From Chryseobacterium sp. LJ668 (lineage in GTDB: Bacteria > Bacteroidota > Bacteroidia > Flavobacteriales > Weeksellaceae): DNA of 64,000 nt. Below the pieces are notes generated by a model, which worked only from the letters and a program-made list of their open reading frames with translations, was not told the origin of the DNA and did no database searches. Both the position numbers and the translations under genes were made by a program. This document shows, piece after piece, positions 1 to 5,491 of the stretch; position 1 is the first letter of the stretch; every line of letters starts with the position of its first letter. Location: the NCBI RefSeq assembly GCF_019613955.1, contig NZ_CP080443.1, positions 3,085,001 to 3,149,000 on the forward strand. Reading direction: 5' to 3'.

Positions 1-402
1 TCGGTTTTCACAATCTGCACCGAGAATTATTTTTTCAGAACCGTATTTTTTTATAATTTCATAACAAAATTCGGGATTTTGAACGGCAATGCTTCCAATT
101 GTAATTTGGTCTGCTCCTGAATTAAACGCAATCTCAATATCTTTTTCCGTTTTCAACCCCCCTCCAAAATCGATTTGTAATGAAGTTTTAGTTGCAATTC
201 TTTCCAAAACTTTTTGATTGATAATATGCTTAGATTTTGCTCCATCAAGATCGACCAGATGTAGAAATTTTATTCCGAAATCTTCAAATTCTGTAGCAAC
301 TTCTACAGGATTTTCATTGTATATTTTTTTTGTGCTGTAGTCACCTTTTGAAAGTCTGACGCATTTTCCGTCGATAATATCTATGGCAGGAATTATTTTC
401 AT
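1..402 (-). CDS. hisA: HisA, phosphoribosylformimino-AICAR-P isomerase (partial, C-terminus outside the window)
   Basis: About 134 codons of the N-terminal part are present; the gene runs off the left edge. The translation begins [20 protein letters not shown], the typical opening of HisA (TIM barrel), and continues with [16 protein letters not shown] and ITIGSIA phosphate-binding strands. The family converts ProFAR to PRFAR in the cytosol, the fourth step of histidine synthesis. An ATG at 405-403 overlaps the hisH stop (TAATG) and a second ATG lies at 402-400; the second matches the family start better. It is the sixth gene of the his operon, and hisF and hisIE would be expected just outside the window. 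Confidence 0.95.
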
Positions 403-404
403 CA

Positions 405-983
405 TTAAATTTTTAGAAAGTTTTCCAATAATTGATTTCCAAATTTCCCTGATTTTTCAGGATGAAACTGTGTTGCAAAGAAATTATCTTTCTGCAACGT
501 TGCGCTGAATGGCAAAATATAATTGCAAACAGAAGTTGTAAAATCTGATAGCTCACAAAAATAACTGTGTACAAAATAAAAATCATTTTCTTCTGAAATC
601 TCCGAAAATAACTCCGATTTTAAATCTGAAATTGTATTCCAGCCCATGTGTGGGACGATATTTTCTGACGGAAATTTCTTCACATTAATATCAAAAATTC
701 CCATTCCAGTTGAGTTTCCCTCTTCATTGTTTTCACACATCAATTGCATTCCAAGGCAAATTCCGAGAACAGGCTGAGTCAATTTTGGAATTAACTGATC
801 CAAACCTCTTTCTTTCAACAATTTCATCGTTGAAGAAGCTTCGCCAACACCCGGAAAAATCACTTTATCAGCTTTTTGTATCAATTCAAAATCGTCTGTG
901 ATTATCGATTTTTCGTCTAATCTTTTTAATGCATTTTGAACCGAATTTACGTTTCCGCCGTTGTATTTTATAATTGCAATCAT
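405..983 (-). CDS. hisH: HisH, imidazole glycerol phosphate synthase glutaminase subunit
   Basis: 192 residues, normal for HisH. It is a class I glutamine amidotransferase: the nucleophile elbow GICLGMQLM puts the catalytic cysteine at residue 76, and FHPEKSG near the end supplies His174 and Glu176. The family supplies ammonia to HisF for making imidazole glycerol phosphate and AICAR. The start ATG directly abuts the hisB stop, and the stop overlaps the hisA start, which suggests translational coupling. hisF itself is not in the window. Confidence 0.96.
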
Positions 984-2078
984 TTATAAGCTTCCTTTTG
1001 TTGATGGTACATTATAGTTTTGATCTGTTTGATTTACAGCCATTTTAATTGCTTTTGCAAAAGCTTTAAAGACAGATTCTATCTTGTGATGTTCATTATT
1101 TCCTTTCGATTTTATATTTAAATTTGATTTGGAAGAATCTGTAAATGATTTGAAAAAGTGGAAAAACATTTCTGAAGGAACATCACCAATTTTTTCTCTA
1201 TTAAATACAACATCCCAAACTAACCACGGTCTTCCGCCAAGATCGATCGCAACCTGAGACAGGCAATCGTCCATTGGTAACAAAAAACCATATCTTTCAA
1301 TTCCTTTTTTTTTGCCTAAAGCCTGTAAAATCGCTTCTCCCAAAACAATCGCAGTATCTTCAATGGTGTGATGCTCATCAACTTGTAAATCTCCGTTTAC
1401 TTTAATTTTTAAATCTAAATTTCCGTGTTTTGAGATTTGTTCGAGCATATGATCAAAAAAATAAAGTCCTGTAGAAATTTCAGAATTTCCGCTTCCGTCT
1501 AGATTGACTTCAATTTCAATTTCTGTTTCATTGGTTTTTCTGTACACTTTAGCTTTTCTTGGAATCTGCTTTAAAAACTGATAAATTTCGCTCCAGTTTT
1601 TCGTAGTCAATTCAGCTTCTTCATTTGCCGTTCCACTGATGAAAATTGTTTTTGTTCCTAAGTTTTTTGCTAATTCAATATCAGTCAATCGATCACCAAT
1701 TACATAAGAGTTTTCAAGATCATAATTTCCGTGAATGTATTTTCCGAGCATCCCGGTTTTTGGTTTTCTCGTATTTAAGTTTTCATGCTCAAAACTTTTA
1801 TCAATGAAAACATCTGTAAAAAGTATTCCTTCGCTTTCAAAAGCTTTCATCATTTTTTCCTGTGGTTTTATAAAATCCTCGTAGGGAAAACTTTCTGTTC
1901 CTAATCCATCCTGGTTTGTTACCATTACCAATTCATAGTCTAATTCTGTTGCGATTTTTGCCAGATTCTGAAAAACTCCGGGATAAAATTCAAGCTTTTC
2001 CAAAGAGTCAACCTGAAAATCTGTTGGCGGTTCGATGATTAATGTTCCGTCTCTATCGATAAATAATACTTTTTTCAT
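984..2078 (-). CDS. hisB: HisB, bifunctional histidinol-phosphatase / imidazoleglycerol-phosphate dehydratase
   Basis: 364 residues, the size of the fused enzyme. Residues 1 to about 165 are a HAD phosphatase, with FIDRDGT at residues 6-12 giving nucleophile Asp8 and Asp10, VTNQDG as the second HAD motif and [12 protein letters not shown] as the acidic motif. From about residue 170 to the end is the dehydratase, with the metal-binding histidine motifs [10 protein letters not shown] and NEHHKIES. It catalyses two non-consecutive steps of histidine synthesis. It lies 2 nt after hisC and abuts hisH. Confidence 0.96.
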
Positions 2079-2080
2079 TT

Positions 2081-3106
2081 TTAAATATTTTTTAAAGCAT
2101 TAATTAATTGAATATTTTCTTCTCTGTTTCCAACATTTATTCTAATGCAGTTCGGAATTTGAGGAAACCTTTTGCTGGTTAAAATTTCGTTTTCCAACAA
2201 TTTTTGATAAACAGTTTCGACATTTTTAAATTGAATAAGAAAAAAATTGGCATCAGTCGGGAAAACTTTTTCGATAGATTTTATTGTTTTAAATTCCTCC
2301 TTTAACCAAGATCTTTCCGCAATGATCTGTTCCAGATTATTCTGAAATTCACTTACATTTTCAAGACTTTTCGAAACTAAATTCAAACTCAAAGAATTGA
2401 CATTATAAGGAGCTTTTACAGTATAAATTAGTTGAGAAATTTCTTGTGAAGAATAAGCGATTCCGATTCTCGCTCCTGCCATTCCCCAAGCTTTTGAAAA
2501 CGTTTGTGAGACAATCAGATTGGGAAATTTTTCTATCAATTCAACTGCTGATCTTTCATTCGAAAACTCAATGTAAGCTTCATCTACAACTACAATTCCG
2601 TTGAAATTTTCGATGTAAAATTCAATGTCTTTAATTGAATTTCCGGTTGGATTGTTGGGAGAACATATAAAGAAAATTTTAGGCTGATTTTCTGTTGTTA
2701 TTTTTAAAAAATCTTCTTTTTGAATCTCGAAATTTCCGTCTAACTGGATTTTTAGAACTGAATTCTCATTGATAGCTGCATAAAAACCATACATCGCAAA
2801 CGAAGGATTCATCATTAAAATCGAATCTTTTTTTGGTTCACAGAAAATTTTGATAATCAAATCGATCAATTCATCACTTCCGTTTCCGACTGAAATTTGC
2901 TTTGGTGAAATGCCTTTAAGCTGAGAAATCTGATTTCTGATTTTCTTATGAGTAGAATCCGGATAACGGTTGAATTCACCAAACGGACTTTCGTTAGCAT
3001 CCATCAAAATAGGATTTGCAAATTCATTCTGATCTCTGAAACTAATATAAGGTTGAAGTTCTGAAATATTTTTTCGAACAAAACGGTTGATATTTATTGC
3101 TGTCAT
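2081..3106 (-). CDS. hisC: HisC, histidinol-phosphate aminotransferase
   Basis: 341 residues. It is a fold-type I PLP aminotransferase: SPNNPTGN binds the cofactor, [10 protein letters not shown] carries the pyridine-nitrogen aspartate, and [16 protein letters not shown] holds the PLP-binding lysine. The family converts imidazole acetol phosphate to L-histidinol phosphate. The gene lies 1 nt after hisD and 2 nt before hisB in a compact operon. The product is a little shorter at the N-terminus than many HisC proteins, but no core motif is missing. Confidence 0.95.
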
Positions 3107-3107
3107 T

Positions 3108-4385
3108 TTACTTTTTTAATCTGATTGAAACTGCGATTTTATGGGCAATTAAACCTTCTGCTTCTGCCATTATTTCTATGGTTTTACCTAAATTTTGTAG
3201 TCCGTCTTTTGATAAATTCTGAAAAGTAATTTTCTTTACAAAACTATCTAATGACACTCCGCTGTAATTTTTAGCAAAACCATTCGTTGGTAGCGTGTGA
3301 TTGGTTCCGCTTGCATAATCTCCTGCACTTTCACAGGAGTAATTTCCGAGAAAAACCGAACCTGCATTTTCGATTAAAGGAACATAATTTTCAAAATTTT
3401 CAATGGCTAGAATTAAATGTTCCGGAGCATATAAATTGCTGAATTGCAAAGCTTCTTCGACAGATTTAACTAAAATAAAATGACTGTTATCTAAAGATTT
3501 TTGGGCAAATTCATTTCTCGGCAGACTTTTAATCTGCTTTTTAACTTCATCAACTGTCTCATTTAAAATTTTAAGATCAGTCGAAATAACAATCACCTGA
3601 CTGTCACTTCCGTGTTCTGCCTGTGAAAGAAGATCTGCAGCGCAGAACTCAGGAACTGCATTTTCATCGGCAATGATTAAAACTTCGCTCGGTCCTGCAG
3701 GCATATCGATTGCAACACCAAAATTCTGAGCCAGTTCTTTTGCTGCAACAACAAATTGATTTCCGGGACCAAAAATTTTGTAAACGTTGGGAATCGTTTC
3801 TGTTCCGAAAGTCATTGCTGCAATGGCCTGAGCTCCGCCAACTTTGAATATTTTAGTGATTCCGCAAAGCTGTGCAGTGTAGAGAATTGCAGGGTTTATT
3901 TCTCCATTTTTATCTGGTGGCGTACAAAGAATAATTTCCTTACAACCAGCCAACTGCGCAGGAATTGCAAGCATTAAAACTGTCGAAAACAATGGTGCAG
4001 TTCCACCAGGAATATAAATTCCGACTTTTTCAATGGCTCGGTTTTCTCTCCAACAAATCACTCCTTTTGTTGTTTCAATTTTTTGAATTTCAGTATTTTG
4101 GGATCTATGAAATTTTGTAATATTTTCTTTTGCCTGTTGAATAGCATTTTTTAATTCTTCTGAGATTAAGTTTGAAAAATTTTCTATATCATTTACTGAA
4201 ACAGAAAGATTTTCTATTTCAACCGAGTCAAATTTTTTGTTGAAATCAAACAGTGCTTTATCGCCAAATTTTTGTACTTCGCTGAAAATTCCTGAGACAA
4301 TGTCGGAAATTTCTTCTTTTTTAAAAACCGGACGTTTTGTCAGTGCGTTCCACTTATTTTTATTGGGAAATTGATATATATTCAT
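3108..4385 (-). CDS. hisD: HisD, histidinol dehydrogenase
   Basis: 425 residues, full length. Recognised by GGTAPLFSTVLM, VGGAQAIAA, DMPAGPSEVLIIAD, LLSQAEHGSDSQ (zinc-site region) and the C-terminal SAGDYASGTNHTLPT. The family oxidises histidinol to histidine in two NAD-dependent steps with a bound zinc ion. It is the second gene of the operon, 1 nt after hisG and 1 nt before hisC, and is controlled with them by the attenuator upstream of hisG. Confidence 0.97.
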   Translation of the reverse strand: MNIYQFPNKNKWNALTKRPVFKKEEISDIVSGIFSEVQKFGDKALFDFNKKFDSVEIENLSVSVNDIENFSNLISEELKNAIQQAKENITKFHRSQNTEIQKIETTKGVICWRENRAIEKVGIYIPGGTAPLFSTVLMLAIPAQLAGCKEIILCTPPDKNGEINPAILYTAQLCGITKIFKVGGAQAIAAMTFGTETIPNVYKIFGPGNQFVVAAKELAQNFGVAIDMPAGPSEVLIIADENAVPEFCAADLLSQAEHGSDSQVIVISTDLKILNETVDEVKKQIKSLPRNEFAQKSLDNSHFILVKSVEEALQFSNLYAPEHLILAIENFENYVPLIENAGSVFLGNYSCESAGDYASGTNHTLPTNGFAKNYSGVSLDSFVKKITFQNLSKDGLQNLGKTIEIMAEAEGLIAHKIAVSIRLKK

Positions 4386-4386
4386 C

Positions 4387-5244
4387 TTAAATAACCATTT
4401 TATCGATTGGAATTATCAAAATATCCTGTGCTCCGTTTTCTCTCAGTTCGTCAATGACATCCCAAAAACGTTCTTCATCAATCACAGAGTGAATGCTGCT
4501 CCAACCTTCTTCGGCCAACGGAATTACGGTCGGACTTTTCAGTACTGGAAGCACGTTTGAAATATCAGCAATTTTTTCATTGGGAACATTCATCAGAATA
4601 TATTTTGAGTTTTTAGCCTTTAATACAGCTTTAATTCTAAATAAGATCTTTTCAAGAATAATTTCTTTTTCAGAACTAAGTTGAGAAGTTTTAGCTAAAA
4701 CGGCTTCAGATTTCAAAATGGTAAGAGTTTCTCGTAAACCATTTTTGAATAAAGTGCTTCCCGAACTTACAATATCGCAGATTCCGTCTGCCAAACCAAT
4801 GTTGGGAGCAATTTCTACCGAACCGGAAATGACGTGAATATCAGCTTCGATATTATTTTCATTCAGAAATTTTTTAAGCGTGTTTGGATAAGATGTGGCA
4901 ATTTTTTTCCCCTGAAAATACTGAAGACTATTGGTTTCGATATTTTTCGTAACAGCAAGAGAAACGCGGCATTTGGAAAATCCTAATTGATGAACAATCG
5001 AAATGTTTTTGTTTTTTTCTGCCAGAAGATTTTCGCCGATGATGGCAATATCAACTACCCCATCTTCCAGATATTGAGGAATATCTGAATTTCTTAGATA
5101 CATAATTTCCATCGGAAAGTTTTCTACTGAAACTTTTAGTTGGTCTTTTCCATTGTTTACATTAATTCCGCAATCTTTAAGAAGCTGGAGCGATTCTTCA
5201 TAAAGACGGCCGCTTTTTTGGATTGCAATTTTTAATTTACTCAT
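4387..5244 (-). CDS. hisG: HisG, ATP phosphoribosyltransferase (long form)
   Basis: 285 residues from the ATG at 5244-5242; the frame also opens at a TTG at 5250, but the ATG gives the usual MSKLKIAIQKSGRL start. The catalytic domain contains DGVVDIAIIGENL and the phosphate loop VSSGSTLFKNGL. The extra C-terminal 70-75 residues form the ACT-like domain of long HisG, which in the family binds histidine for feedback inhibition. It catalyses the first committed step. So the pathway is probably controlled twice: by feedback here and by transcription attenuation in the 5' leader at 5313-5436. Confidence 0.96.
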   Translation of the reverse strand: MSKLKIAIQKSGRLYEESLQLLKDCGINVNNGKDQLKVSVENFPMEIMYLRNSDIPQYLEDGVVDIAIIGENLLAEKNKNISIVHQLGFSKCRVSLAVTKNIETNSLQYFQGKKIATSYPNTLKKFLNENNIEADIHVISGSVEIAPNIGLADGICDIVSSGSTLFKNGLRETLTILKSEAVLAKTSQLSSEKEIILEKILFRIKAVLKAKNSKYILMNVPNEKIADISNVLPVLKSPTVIPLAEEGWSSIHSVIDEERFWDVIDELRENGAQDILIIPIDKMVI

Positions 5245-5312
5245 TTTCAAATTTCTTGTGTCTGAGTAAATGGAAAGTATTTATTGAGATTTCTGAGGAA
5301 AATTCAGGAAAC

Positions 5313-5340
5313 AAAAAAACCGTCTATAGACTCAGACGGT
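5313..5340 (-). terminator. his operon attenuator terminator
   Basis: In the minus-strand transcript a 7-bp stem ACCGTCT/AGACGGT with an 8-nt loop (5340-5319) is followed by seven U. It lies between the leader peptide and hisG, so it can only act as a premature terminator for the his operon. Its 5' arm can instead pair with AGACGG at 5389-5384, which overlaps the leader stop codon. Confidence 0.88.
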
Positions 5341-5436
5341 TTAAATTATCATTATATTTTTTTAACACAAATATCAATCAATTCCGTCTTAGCAGAGATG
5401 ATGATAATGATGTACTGTTAAAAAATTGGGTTTCAT
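5319..5436 (-). promoter_or_regulatory. his leader attenuator (leader peptide, antiterminator and terminator arms)
   Basis: The sequence AGACGG occurs at 5389-5384 (segment A, overlapping the leader stop) and at 5325-5320 (segment C, the 3' terminator arm). Both are complementary to CCGTCT at 5339-5334 (segment B). A:B can extend to nine pairs with one mismatch. A ribosome stalled on the His codons (5412-5398) would leave A free to pair with B and prevent the terminator. A ribosome reaching the stop would cover A and let B:C form. The mechanism is inferred from the known enterobacterial his attenuator; the complementary segments are seen directly. Confidence 0.82.
5389..5436 (-). CDS. hisL: his operon leader peptide (15 residues, HHYHH)
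   Basis: An ATG at 5436-5434 opens a 15-codon frame reading MKPNFLTVHHYHHLC, ended by TAA at 5391-5389. Four of five consecutive codons are CAT (His). It lies about 18 nt downstream of a near-consensus Bacteroidota promoter and about 50 nt before the attenuator terminator, 145 nt from the hisG start. Position, histidine run and overlap of its stop with the antiterminator arm all support a regulatory leader peptide. The symbol is used by analogy with enterobacterial hisL; there is no expected sequence homology. Confidence 0.87.
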   Translation of the reverse strand: MKPNFLTVHHYHHLC

Positions 5437-5454
5437 TGTTGAATATTTATGGTA

Positions 5455-5484
5455 CAAATGTAGAACTAATTTTTAACTGACCAA
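5455..5484 (-). promoter_or_regulatory. his operon promoter
   Basis: TTG at 5484-5482, a 19-nt spacer and TACATTTG at 5462-5455 match the Bacteroidota consensus TTG-N19-TAnnTTTG exactly. The start point should fall near 5448, giving a short 5' leader before the hisL ATG. The promoter sits just 7 nt after the stop of the upstream glycosyltransferase gene, and no terminator separates the two units. Confidence 0.82.
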
Positions 5485-5491
5485 GAATTTT

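Follow-up and report, generated by a model that had tools for sequence, protein, structure and literature searches.

The histidine operon in the window (the whole stretch of 64,000 nucleotides analysed) is, element D left aside, very probably controlled by a ribosome-mediated transcription attenuator, and a candidate leader-peptide attenuator with testable arms and coordinates precedes hisG in most of the Bacteroidota that we sampled. The attenuator reading is well supported because a His-rich open reading frame (ORF) is conserved in 209 of the 214 loci compared and two competing arms, A and B, change together. A further segment between the T run and hisG, which we call element D, suggests a second, translational lock on hisG. 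More tentatively, and with somewhat less than even confidence, we propose that the his leader of Flavobacteriales may be a double lock operated by a single stalled ribosome, in which A, C, and D would compete for the B arm and loop, D would be shared with the hisG start codon, and the loop and the first hisG codons would have co-evolved through D.

Every element, from the promoter, leader ORF, arms, and terminator to the his genes, lies on the minus strand (Table 1); the original prediction had left the strand unstated, and the elements that it listed are all present. In 5' to 3' order they are a promoter, a 15-codon ORF, the A arm overlapping its stop, the B:C terminator, and hisG. The full promoter that had been claimed is there as TTGG and TACATTTG, which we take to be the Bacteroidota promoter type (consensus TTG / TAnnTTTG), and a scan for E. 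coli-type promoters detected none at this place. In the 110 nt that precede the first His codon, TAnnTTTG is found in 68/68 leaders of the genus, 54/57 of the family, 35/46 of the order, and 22/30 of the class or phylum, in comparison with 212 of 4020 mononucleotide shuffles, and TTG stands 17 to 27 nt upstream of this motif in 66 of the 68 genus leaders. The ORF had been described correctly as having four His codons in five, and so had the overlap of the competing repeats with the leader stop, AGACGG sharing the last base of the TAA. The fold of the leader RNA has a z score of -3.3, none of 200 shuffles being equally good. The terminator (5342-5317) reads AAACCGTCTG-AGTCTA-TAGACGGTTT and has 10 pairs with A-U pairs counted, of which the 7 bp originally described are the core. 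The seven T that follow agree with the earlier account, three of them being also paired, but their placement directly before hisG does not: 68 nt separate the T run from the hisG ATG (5244). This is the one terminator-like site in 1.2 kb, and the scan is not significant on its own because shuffles gave a mean of 0.7.

Table 1. Features of the his leader and operon in the window (all on the minus strand).
Feature	Position	Strand	Remarks
Upstream promoter element TTGG	5481..5484	-	-33 type
Promoter element TACATTTG (TAnnTTTG)	5455..5462	-	18 nt spacer after TTGG
Leader ORF MKPNFLTVHHYHHLC (15 codons and TAA)	5389..5436	-	counterparts in 209/214 loci
Arm 1, 5' part TTTTTTAACA (codons F-L-T)	5416..5425	-	fold; compensatory leader classes FLT/FLA/FST
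HHYHH codons CAT CAT TAT CAT CAT	5398..5412	-	proposed stall site, also within arm 1
A arm AGACGG (putative antiterminator, pairs with B)	5384..5389	-	overlaps leader stop
Arm 2 segment TTGATTGATA, predicted pairing with His codons	5372..5381	-	fold
Arm 2 segment TGTTAAAAAAA, predicted pairing with TTTTTTAACA	5357..5367	-	fold; leader classes
B arm AAACCGTCTG (terminator 5' half)	5333..5342	-	
Terminator loop AGTCTA	5327..5332	-	AGTAAA in many relatives
C arm TAGACGGTTT (terminator 3' half)	5317..5326	-	
Seven-T run after hairpin core	5313..5319	-	
Element D ATTTACTCAGAC	5260..5271	-	complementary to B arm and loop and to hisG start
Element E ATGAGTAAAT (hisG start codon and codons 2-3)	5235..5244	-	complementary to D
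hisG, ATP phosphoribosyltransferase (long form)	4387..5244	-	TIGR00070 and TIGR03455 above cut-off
hisD	3108..4385	-	TIGR00069 above cut-off
hisC	2081..3106	-	TIGR01141 above cut-off
hisB, bifunctional	984..2078	-	NF003937 above cut-off
hisH	405..983	-	TIGR01855 above cut-off
hisA, cut by window edge	1..405	-	TIGR00007 142.7 bits, below cut-off

The downstream enzymes in the window are all histidine enzymes by NCBIfam profiles, and neighboring genes overlap, abut, or lie 1-2 nt apart. The hisA score falls under its cut-off because the window holds a cut piece; the whole frame is present in the genome beyond the window, where the operon continues with frames read by eye as hisF and hisIE. The nearest named relatives of the HisG protein are mostly from Chryseobacterium, with 83-88% identity. 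A second leader-like arrangement was seen in the same genome, about 45.2 kb on contig C1 (L236:722-799), where a Trp-rich ORF MFNTSNNFWWWHSNSSSGLKLLSCC is followed by a terminator-like hairpin and a T run; the gene downstream is trpE-like (Chorismate_bind, 474-aa frame), and the arrangement is likely a trp attenuator. Searches of this genome for prephenate dehydratase (PDT) gave no match, and those for acetolactate synthase gave none above the cut-off and only a 26-bit partial match. The host is probably auxotrophic for Phe and the branched-chain amino acids and not for His, all his genes being present. Among relatives, hisG is broken by stops or split in G062, G064, G092, G127, G210, and G223, and a search of 148 genus genomes found no hisG match in 6.

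We compared 600 nt upstream of hisG in 214 genomes (68 genus, 58 family, 48 order, and 40 class/phylum), which are a hand-picked part of the matches. The genus set combines the 30 best matches with 18 that came from the family search and a further 20, mostly divergent ones; at the wider levels, loci were chosen by hand from the lists so as to cover different genera. A short ORF with at least three His in six codons was found in 209 of the 214 loci and in 49 of 2140 dinucleotide shuffles, and one with at least four His in 190 loci and 2 of 2140 shuffles. The conservation of the His-rich leader is thus far beyond chance; clusters of Ser and Ile in the ORF counts presumably reflect other frames of the CAT repeats. 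By group, the leader is present in 68/68 genus, 57/58 family, 47/48 order, and 37/40 class/phylum loci, and a terminator between leader and hisG in 68/68, 57/58, 46/48, and 30/40, respectively, leader or terminator being absent from 10 of the 40 class/phylum loci. Among named genomes, which overlap in species with the 214 and are not an independent sample, 74 of 80 loci have a His-rich leader, all 74 with a terminator, and L300, one of those without a leader, holds only 183 nt upstream, so that its missing leader means little; the genera with both include Chryseobacterium, Winogradskyella, Brumimicrobium, Crocinitomix, Flavobacterium, Tenacibaculum, Maribacter, Marinifilum, and Reichenbachiella. 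Rfam gave no match at cut-off in the window, and no leader family at the gathering score in the loci of 20 named relatives. The label RF00514 His_leader was dropped, its match in the window scoring 25.4 bits (E 0.12) against a gathering score of 49.

Three kinds of departure were seen. In 21 of 21 reduced genomes of about 0.6 Mb from one genus of the order (L143, L215-L234), hisG is kept without a His-rich leader ORF, and a hairpin AGCTTAC...GTAAGCT with a T-rich tail remains by eye; this looks like a loss of sensing in endosymbionts. In two families of the class (L200-L204, L182, L190, L191), the leaders are His-rich and the scan found no intrinsic terminator in 7 of 8, L204 having a 5-bp hairpin only; perhaps these loci use a different output mechanism. 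In L010, L022, and L167, the leader stop is lost and the ORF extends by 5-6 codons (KDGID, QDGID, PDGIDW), with the A arm still in place.

Within the genus, the arms are nearly fixed at AGACGG/CCGTCT/AGACGG, some loci having AGGCGG; as A, B, and C hardly vary there, they are uninformative on pairing, and the support for A:B comes from other families. Between families, A and B change jointly, as in AAGGCG/CGCCTT, CTCAAGCG/CGTTTGAG, CACCACGGC/GCTGTGGTG, TCCACGGTGAG/CTCGCTGTGGA, and GCGGTAGGCT/GGCTTACCGC. The A:B duplex ranks among the best 10 of 200 shuffles in 65/68 genus, 50/57 family, 41/46 order, and 19/30 class/phylum loci. In a swap test of 55 distinct B arms, corrected by subtracting row and column means and leaving out stems <8 bp, none of 20,000 permutations was as good as the observed pairs; own pairs were favored in 54 of 55 cases (-4.19 kcal/mol, permutation sd 0.35) and were in the top 5% of their row in 16. 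Without the correction, the signal was moderate, the own B arm being the best in 10 of 59 cases and in the top 5% in 20 of 59. The position of A is similarly regular: it ends no more than 9 nt past the end of the leader stop in 68/68 genus, 57/57 family, and 44/45 order loci and starts 7-8 nt (median) after the last His codon, the best A overlapping the His codons in some family and order loci. A terminating ribosome is reported to cover up to 12 nt past the stop (PMC4833913), and by its position the A arm would lie within reach of a ribosome terminating on the leader. The genomes show directly what the parts are, how well they are conserved, how they are spaced, and that they change in concert.

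In the predicted fold of the window, the stretch immediately 3' of A pairs with the F-L-T codons and the His codons, and from the comparisons that follow we consider such an arm 1:2 likely, though not proven. Genus leaders fall into the classes FLT (TTTTTTAACA), FLA (TTTTTAGCA), and FST (TTCTCAACA), with the 3' partners TGTTAAAA, TGCTAAAA, and GTGTTGAA, respectively. We compared arm 1:2 by duplex energy because alignment misplaced the 3' part of arm 2; with 63 leaders aligned, that part was misaligned in some subgroups, and alignment-based pair counts for arm 2 were abandoned. Over the 66 distinct leaders among the 68 of the genus, which served for the energy and pair-count tests alike, the mean duplex energy with the own partner was -6.7 for FLT (-3.6 and -6.9 with the others), -9.2 for FLA (-7.2 and -6.0), and -10.7 for FST (-4.2 and -3.3). 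The FLA and FST arms thus pair best with their own 3' partners, and FLT equally well with the FST partner. Permutation over 15 distinct arms gave 6 of 20,000 results as good, a number to be read with the classes being possibly only two changes. At least 8 of 9 pairs form in 60 of 66 leaders, in comparison with 1419 of 6600 mononucleotide shuffles. A swap test on pair counts failed to separate the classes (FLA own 8.00 vs. 8.35; FST own 6.00 vs. 6.33), partly because G-U counts as a pair. The 1:2 duplex ranks among the best 10 of 200 shuffles in 9/68 genus, 17/57 family, 26/46 order, and 11/30 class/phylum loci.

Element D is complementary both to the B arm and loop (GTCTGAGT in the window and GTCTGAGTAAA in many relatives) and to the hisG start TGAGTAAAT. 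Loop, D, and start change jointly, the combinations being GAGTAAA / TTTACTC / ATGAGTAAA; a Flavobacterium type, GAGTACA / TGTACTC / ATGAGTACA or ATGAGTACT; GAACAAA / TTTGTTC / ATGAACAAA; TTGAGTTTT / AAACTCAA / ATGAGTTCA; and, in L310, GAACTAA / TTTAGTTC / ATGAACAAA. With 25 of the 30 terminator-bearing class/phylum loci included, and with loci that are related and not independent, D:B+loop ranks among the best 5 of 100 shuffles in 68/68 genus, 52/57 family, 32/46 order, and 2/25 class/phylum loci, and the predicted pairing of D with the hisG start does so in 53/68, 42/57, 27/46, and 3/25. In the named set, the corresponding numbers are 68/77 and 51/77 (3 of 80 loci skipped). Swap tests on 76 distinct combinations, class/phylum loci excluded, gave 0 of 20,000 permutations for each pairing. 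When D was anchored by its arm part alone, loop and D were readable in 116 of 171 loci; among these, and with G-U allowed, D pairs with every one of the five loop positions in 88 and with every one of the five start positions in 82. Beyond the genus, loop and D were identical in 26 of 59 cases, the shuffled mean being 7.5 and the maximum 17. The arm part follows B as well: B arms with GTCTGA go with TCAGAC, TCGGAC, or TCAGGC in D at 81 loci and with TCAAAC at 1, and B arms with GTTTGA go with TCAAAC at 14 loci and, by wobble, with TCAGAC or TCAGGC at 7. No D was recognized in 16 loci of the GTCTGA type and 13 of the GTTTGA type. On the start side, codon 2 of hisG, when Ser, is AGT in 67/67, 36/38, and 29/31 instances, and the share of AGT among internal hisG Ser codons is 13% (72 loci). 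Most class/phylum loci and some of the order loci lack D.

On a HisG tree of 103 rows, the matching changes of loop, D, and E do not sit in a single place: they occur in one clade of 11 rows whose loops read ACA or GCA, in a GTT clade of 6 rows, in Flavobacterium, and in L310. An independent-pairs test on this tree found 3-7 supported pairs, too few to confirm the D reading, and did not reach significance, with no median p below 0.25 among the results listed. Equilibrium folding predicts a D:start hairpin, a start-codon base being unpaired with a median probability of about 0.35. Freeing B raised the predicted accessibility of the start by more than 0.1 in only 33 of the 171 loci and lowered it in 8, and equilibrium folding was rejected as proof of a D switch. 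Such a switch would have to be kinetic, D being made before the start codon and meeting free B first. Since D is made after the terminator, it would act only in read-through RNA and not on termination. In one locus, L136, the hairpin lacks a T run and the fold pairs B and loop with D and not with C, the D pairing being the predicted main structure.

Could control be mainly translational, the leader ribosome setting access to the hisG start through D:start or D:B-loop pairing and the hairpin with its T run being a weak terminator? The double complementarity of D and its matching changes would fit this, as would L182, L190, L191, and L200-L203, which have a His run and no intrinsic terminator by scan. 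Hairpin and T run are nevertheless kept in 68/68 genus, 57/58 family, and 46/48 order loci, and most class/phylum loci lack D yet keep leader and terminator, and we regard this reading as very improbable. Still less probable, in our judgment, is a role at the DNA level, in which D and E together would be an inverted-repeat operator bound by a repressor, instead of an RNA device: ATTTACTCA...TGAGTAAAT is indeed a perfect inverted repeat in the window, but the distance from D to its hisG match varies from about 25 to 48 nt among the matches listed, and D tracks changes in the terminator 5' arm, which is outside the repeat.

We find it hardly credible that the conserved peptide is itself a trans-acting factor, with the RNA structures secondary to it. 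Trans-acting leader peptides exist, such as peTrpL (PMC7298713), and the short ORF is kept in nearly all loci, but outside the His run the peptide differs widely between families, its changes within the genus go with RNA pairing, and the three stop-loss variants lengthen it while keeping the A arm.

Ribosome-mediated attenuation remains the preferred reading. The stalling on CAT codons that the original prediction proposed, with AGACGG pairing with CCGTCT, finds support in the His codons conserved upstream of hisG in relatives and in the A/B complementarity kept through sequence change across families; it was incomplete in missing arm 1:2 and element D, and clues to attenuation in this group were already in print (PMC9723704). 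For stalling, timing, termination, and the response to histidine, we infer the following course. Transcription would begin slightly upstream of the leader ORF, whose 15 codons the first ribosome would enter behind the polymerase. With ample His-tRNA, the ribosome would reach the stop and cover A, B:C would form, and transcription would end before hisG. With scarce His-tRNA, it would stall in the His run and open 1:2, in which segments 3' of A are paired with the FLT and His codons; A would then be free to pair with B, no terminator would form, and the operon would be read. The D layer is less certain. When histidine is plentiful and B is held in the terminator hairpin, D may close the hisG start in transcripts that have leaked through; when a stalled ribosome frees B, B and loop may capture D, and hisG would be translated.

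The comparative papers of Vitreschak in 2004 and Lopatovskaya in 2010 reportedly include predictions for Bacteroidetes. The accessible part of a Flavobacterium psychrophilum transcriptome study describes strong clues to leader-peptide attenuation before amino-acid operons and a conserved hisG 5' element found also in other Flavobacteriaceae (PMC9723704). Gene, phylum, and proposed mechanism are the same as here, and it is very likely the same element, although that part of the account gives no arms or D element (PMC9723704). As far as the accessible texts go, a survey of his genes in the superphylum mentions attenuation only for enterobacteria (PMC8305728), leader-like sORFs have been noted in Bacteroides thetaiotaomicron (PMC7366714), and in 2010 no leader peptides were known outside Proteobacteria and Actinobacteria, except ermC (PMC2965389). 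The attenuator type is already known and has been glimpsed in this group, partly in print (PMC9723704). New here are how widely it occurs in the sampled phylum, the likely 1:2 arm, and, most of all, element D, which, judged by title and the start of the abstract, is undescribed among the literature matches listed, from a coverage with most subscription papers outside it. If D acts in this way, one RNA segment would couple transcription termination to translation initiation, and the strong AGT preference at hisG codon 2 would be an RNA constraint. Bacteroidota make little use of Shine-Dalgarno sequences.

The enterobacterial his attenuator (hisL; RF00514) has, as here, a leader ORF with a His run, competing arms, and an intrinsic terminator before hisG. 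The run here is shorter (HHYHH), the arms are fewer, and there is no Rfam match at cut-off, and we claim no similarity; we know of no D element in hisL. In the B. subtilis trp operon, one leader governs both termination and translation of the first gene, the TRAP protein senses tryptophan, and this step works without a stalled ribosome, unlike the stalling proposed at the his leader. In the B. subtilis leaders of yxjB (PMC6851288) and vmlR (PMC9226507), by the accessible parts of their descriptions, stalling in a leader ORF prevents termination, as proposed here, and controls both termination and translation, the yxjB leader also having a hairpin that hides the ribosome-binding site (PMC6851288). 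These leaders sense antibiotics and hide the Shine-Dalgarno sequence, whereas the his leader would sense His-tRNA and D would hide the start codon itself.
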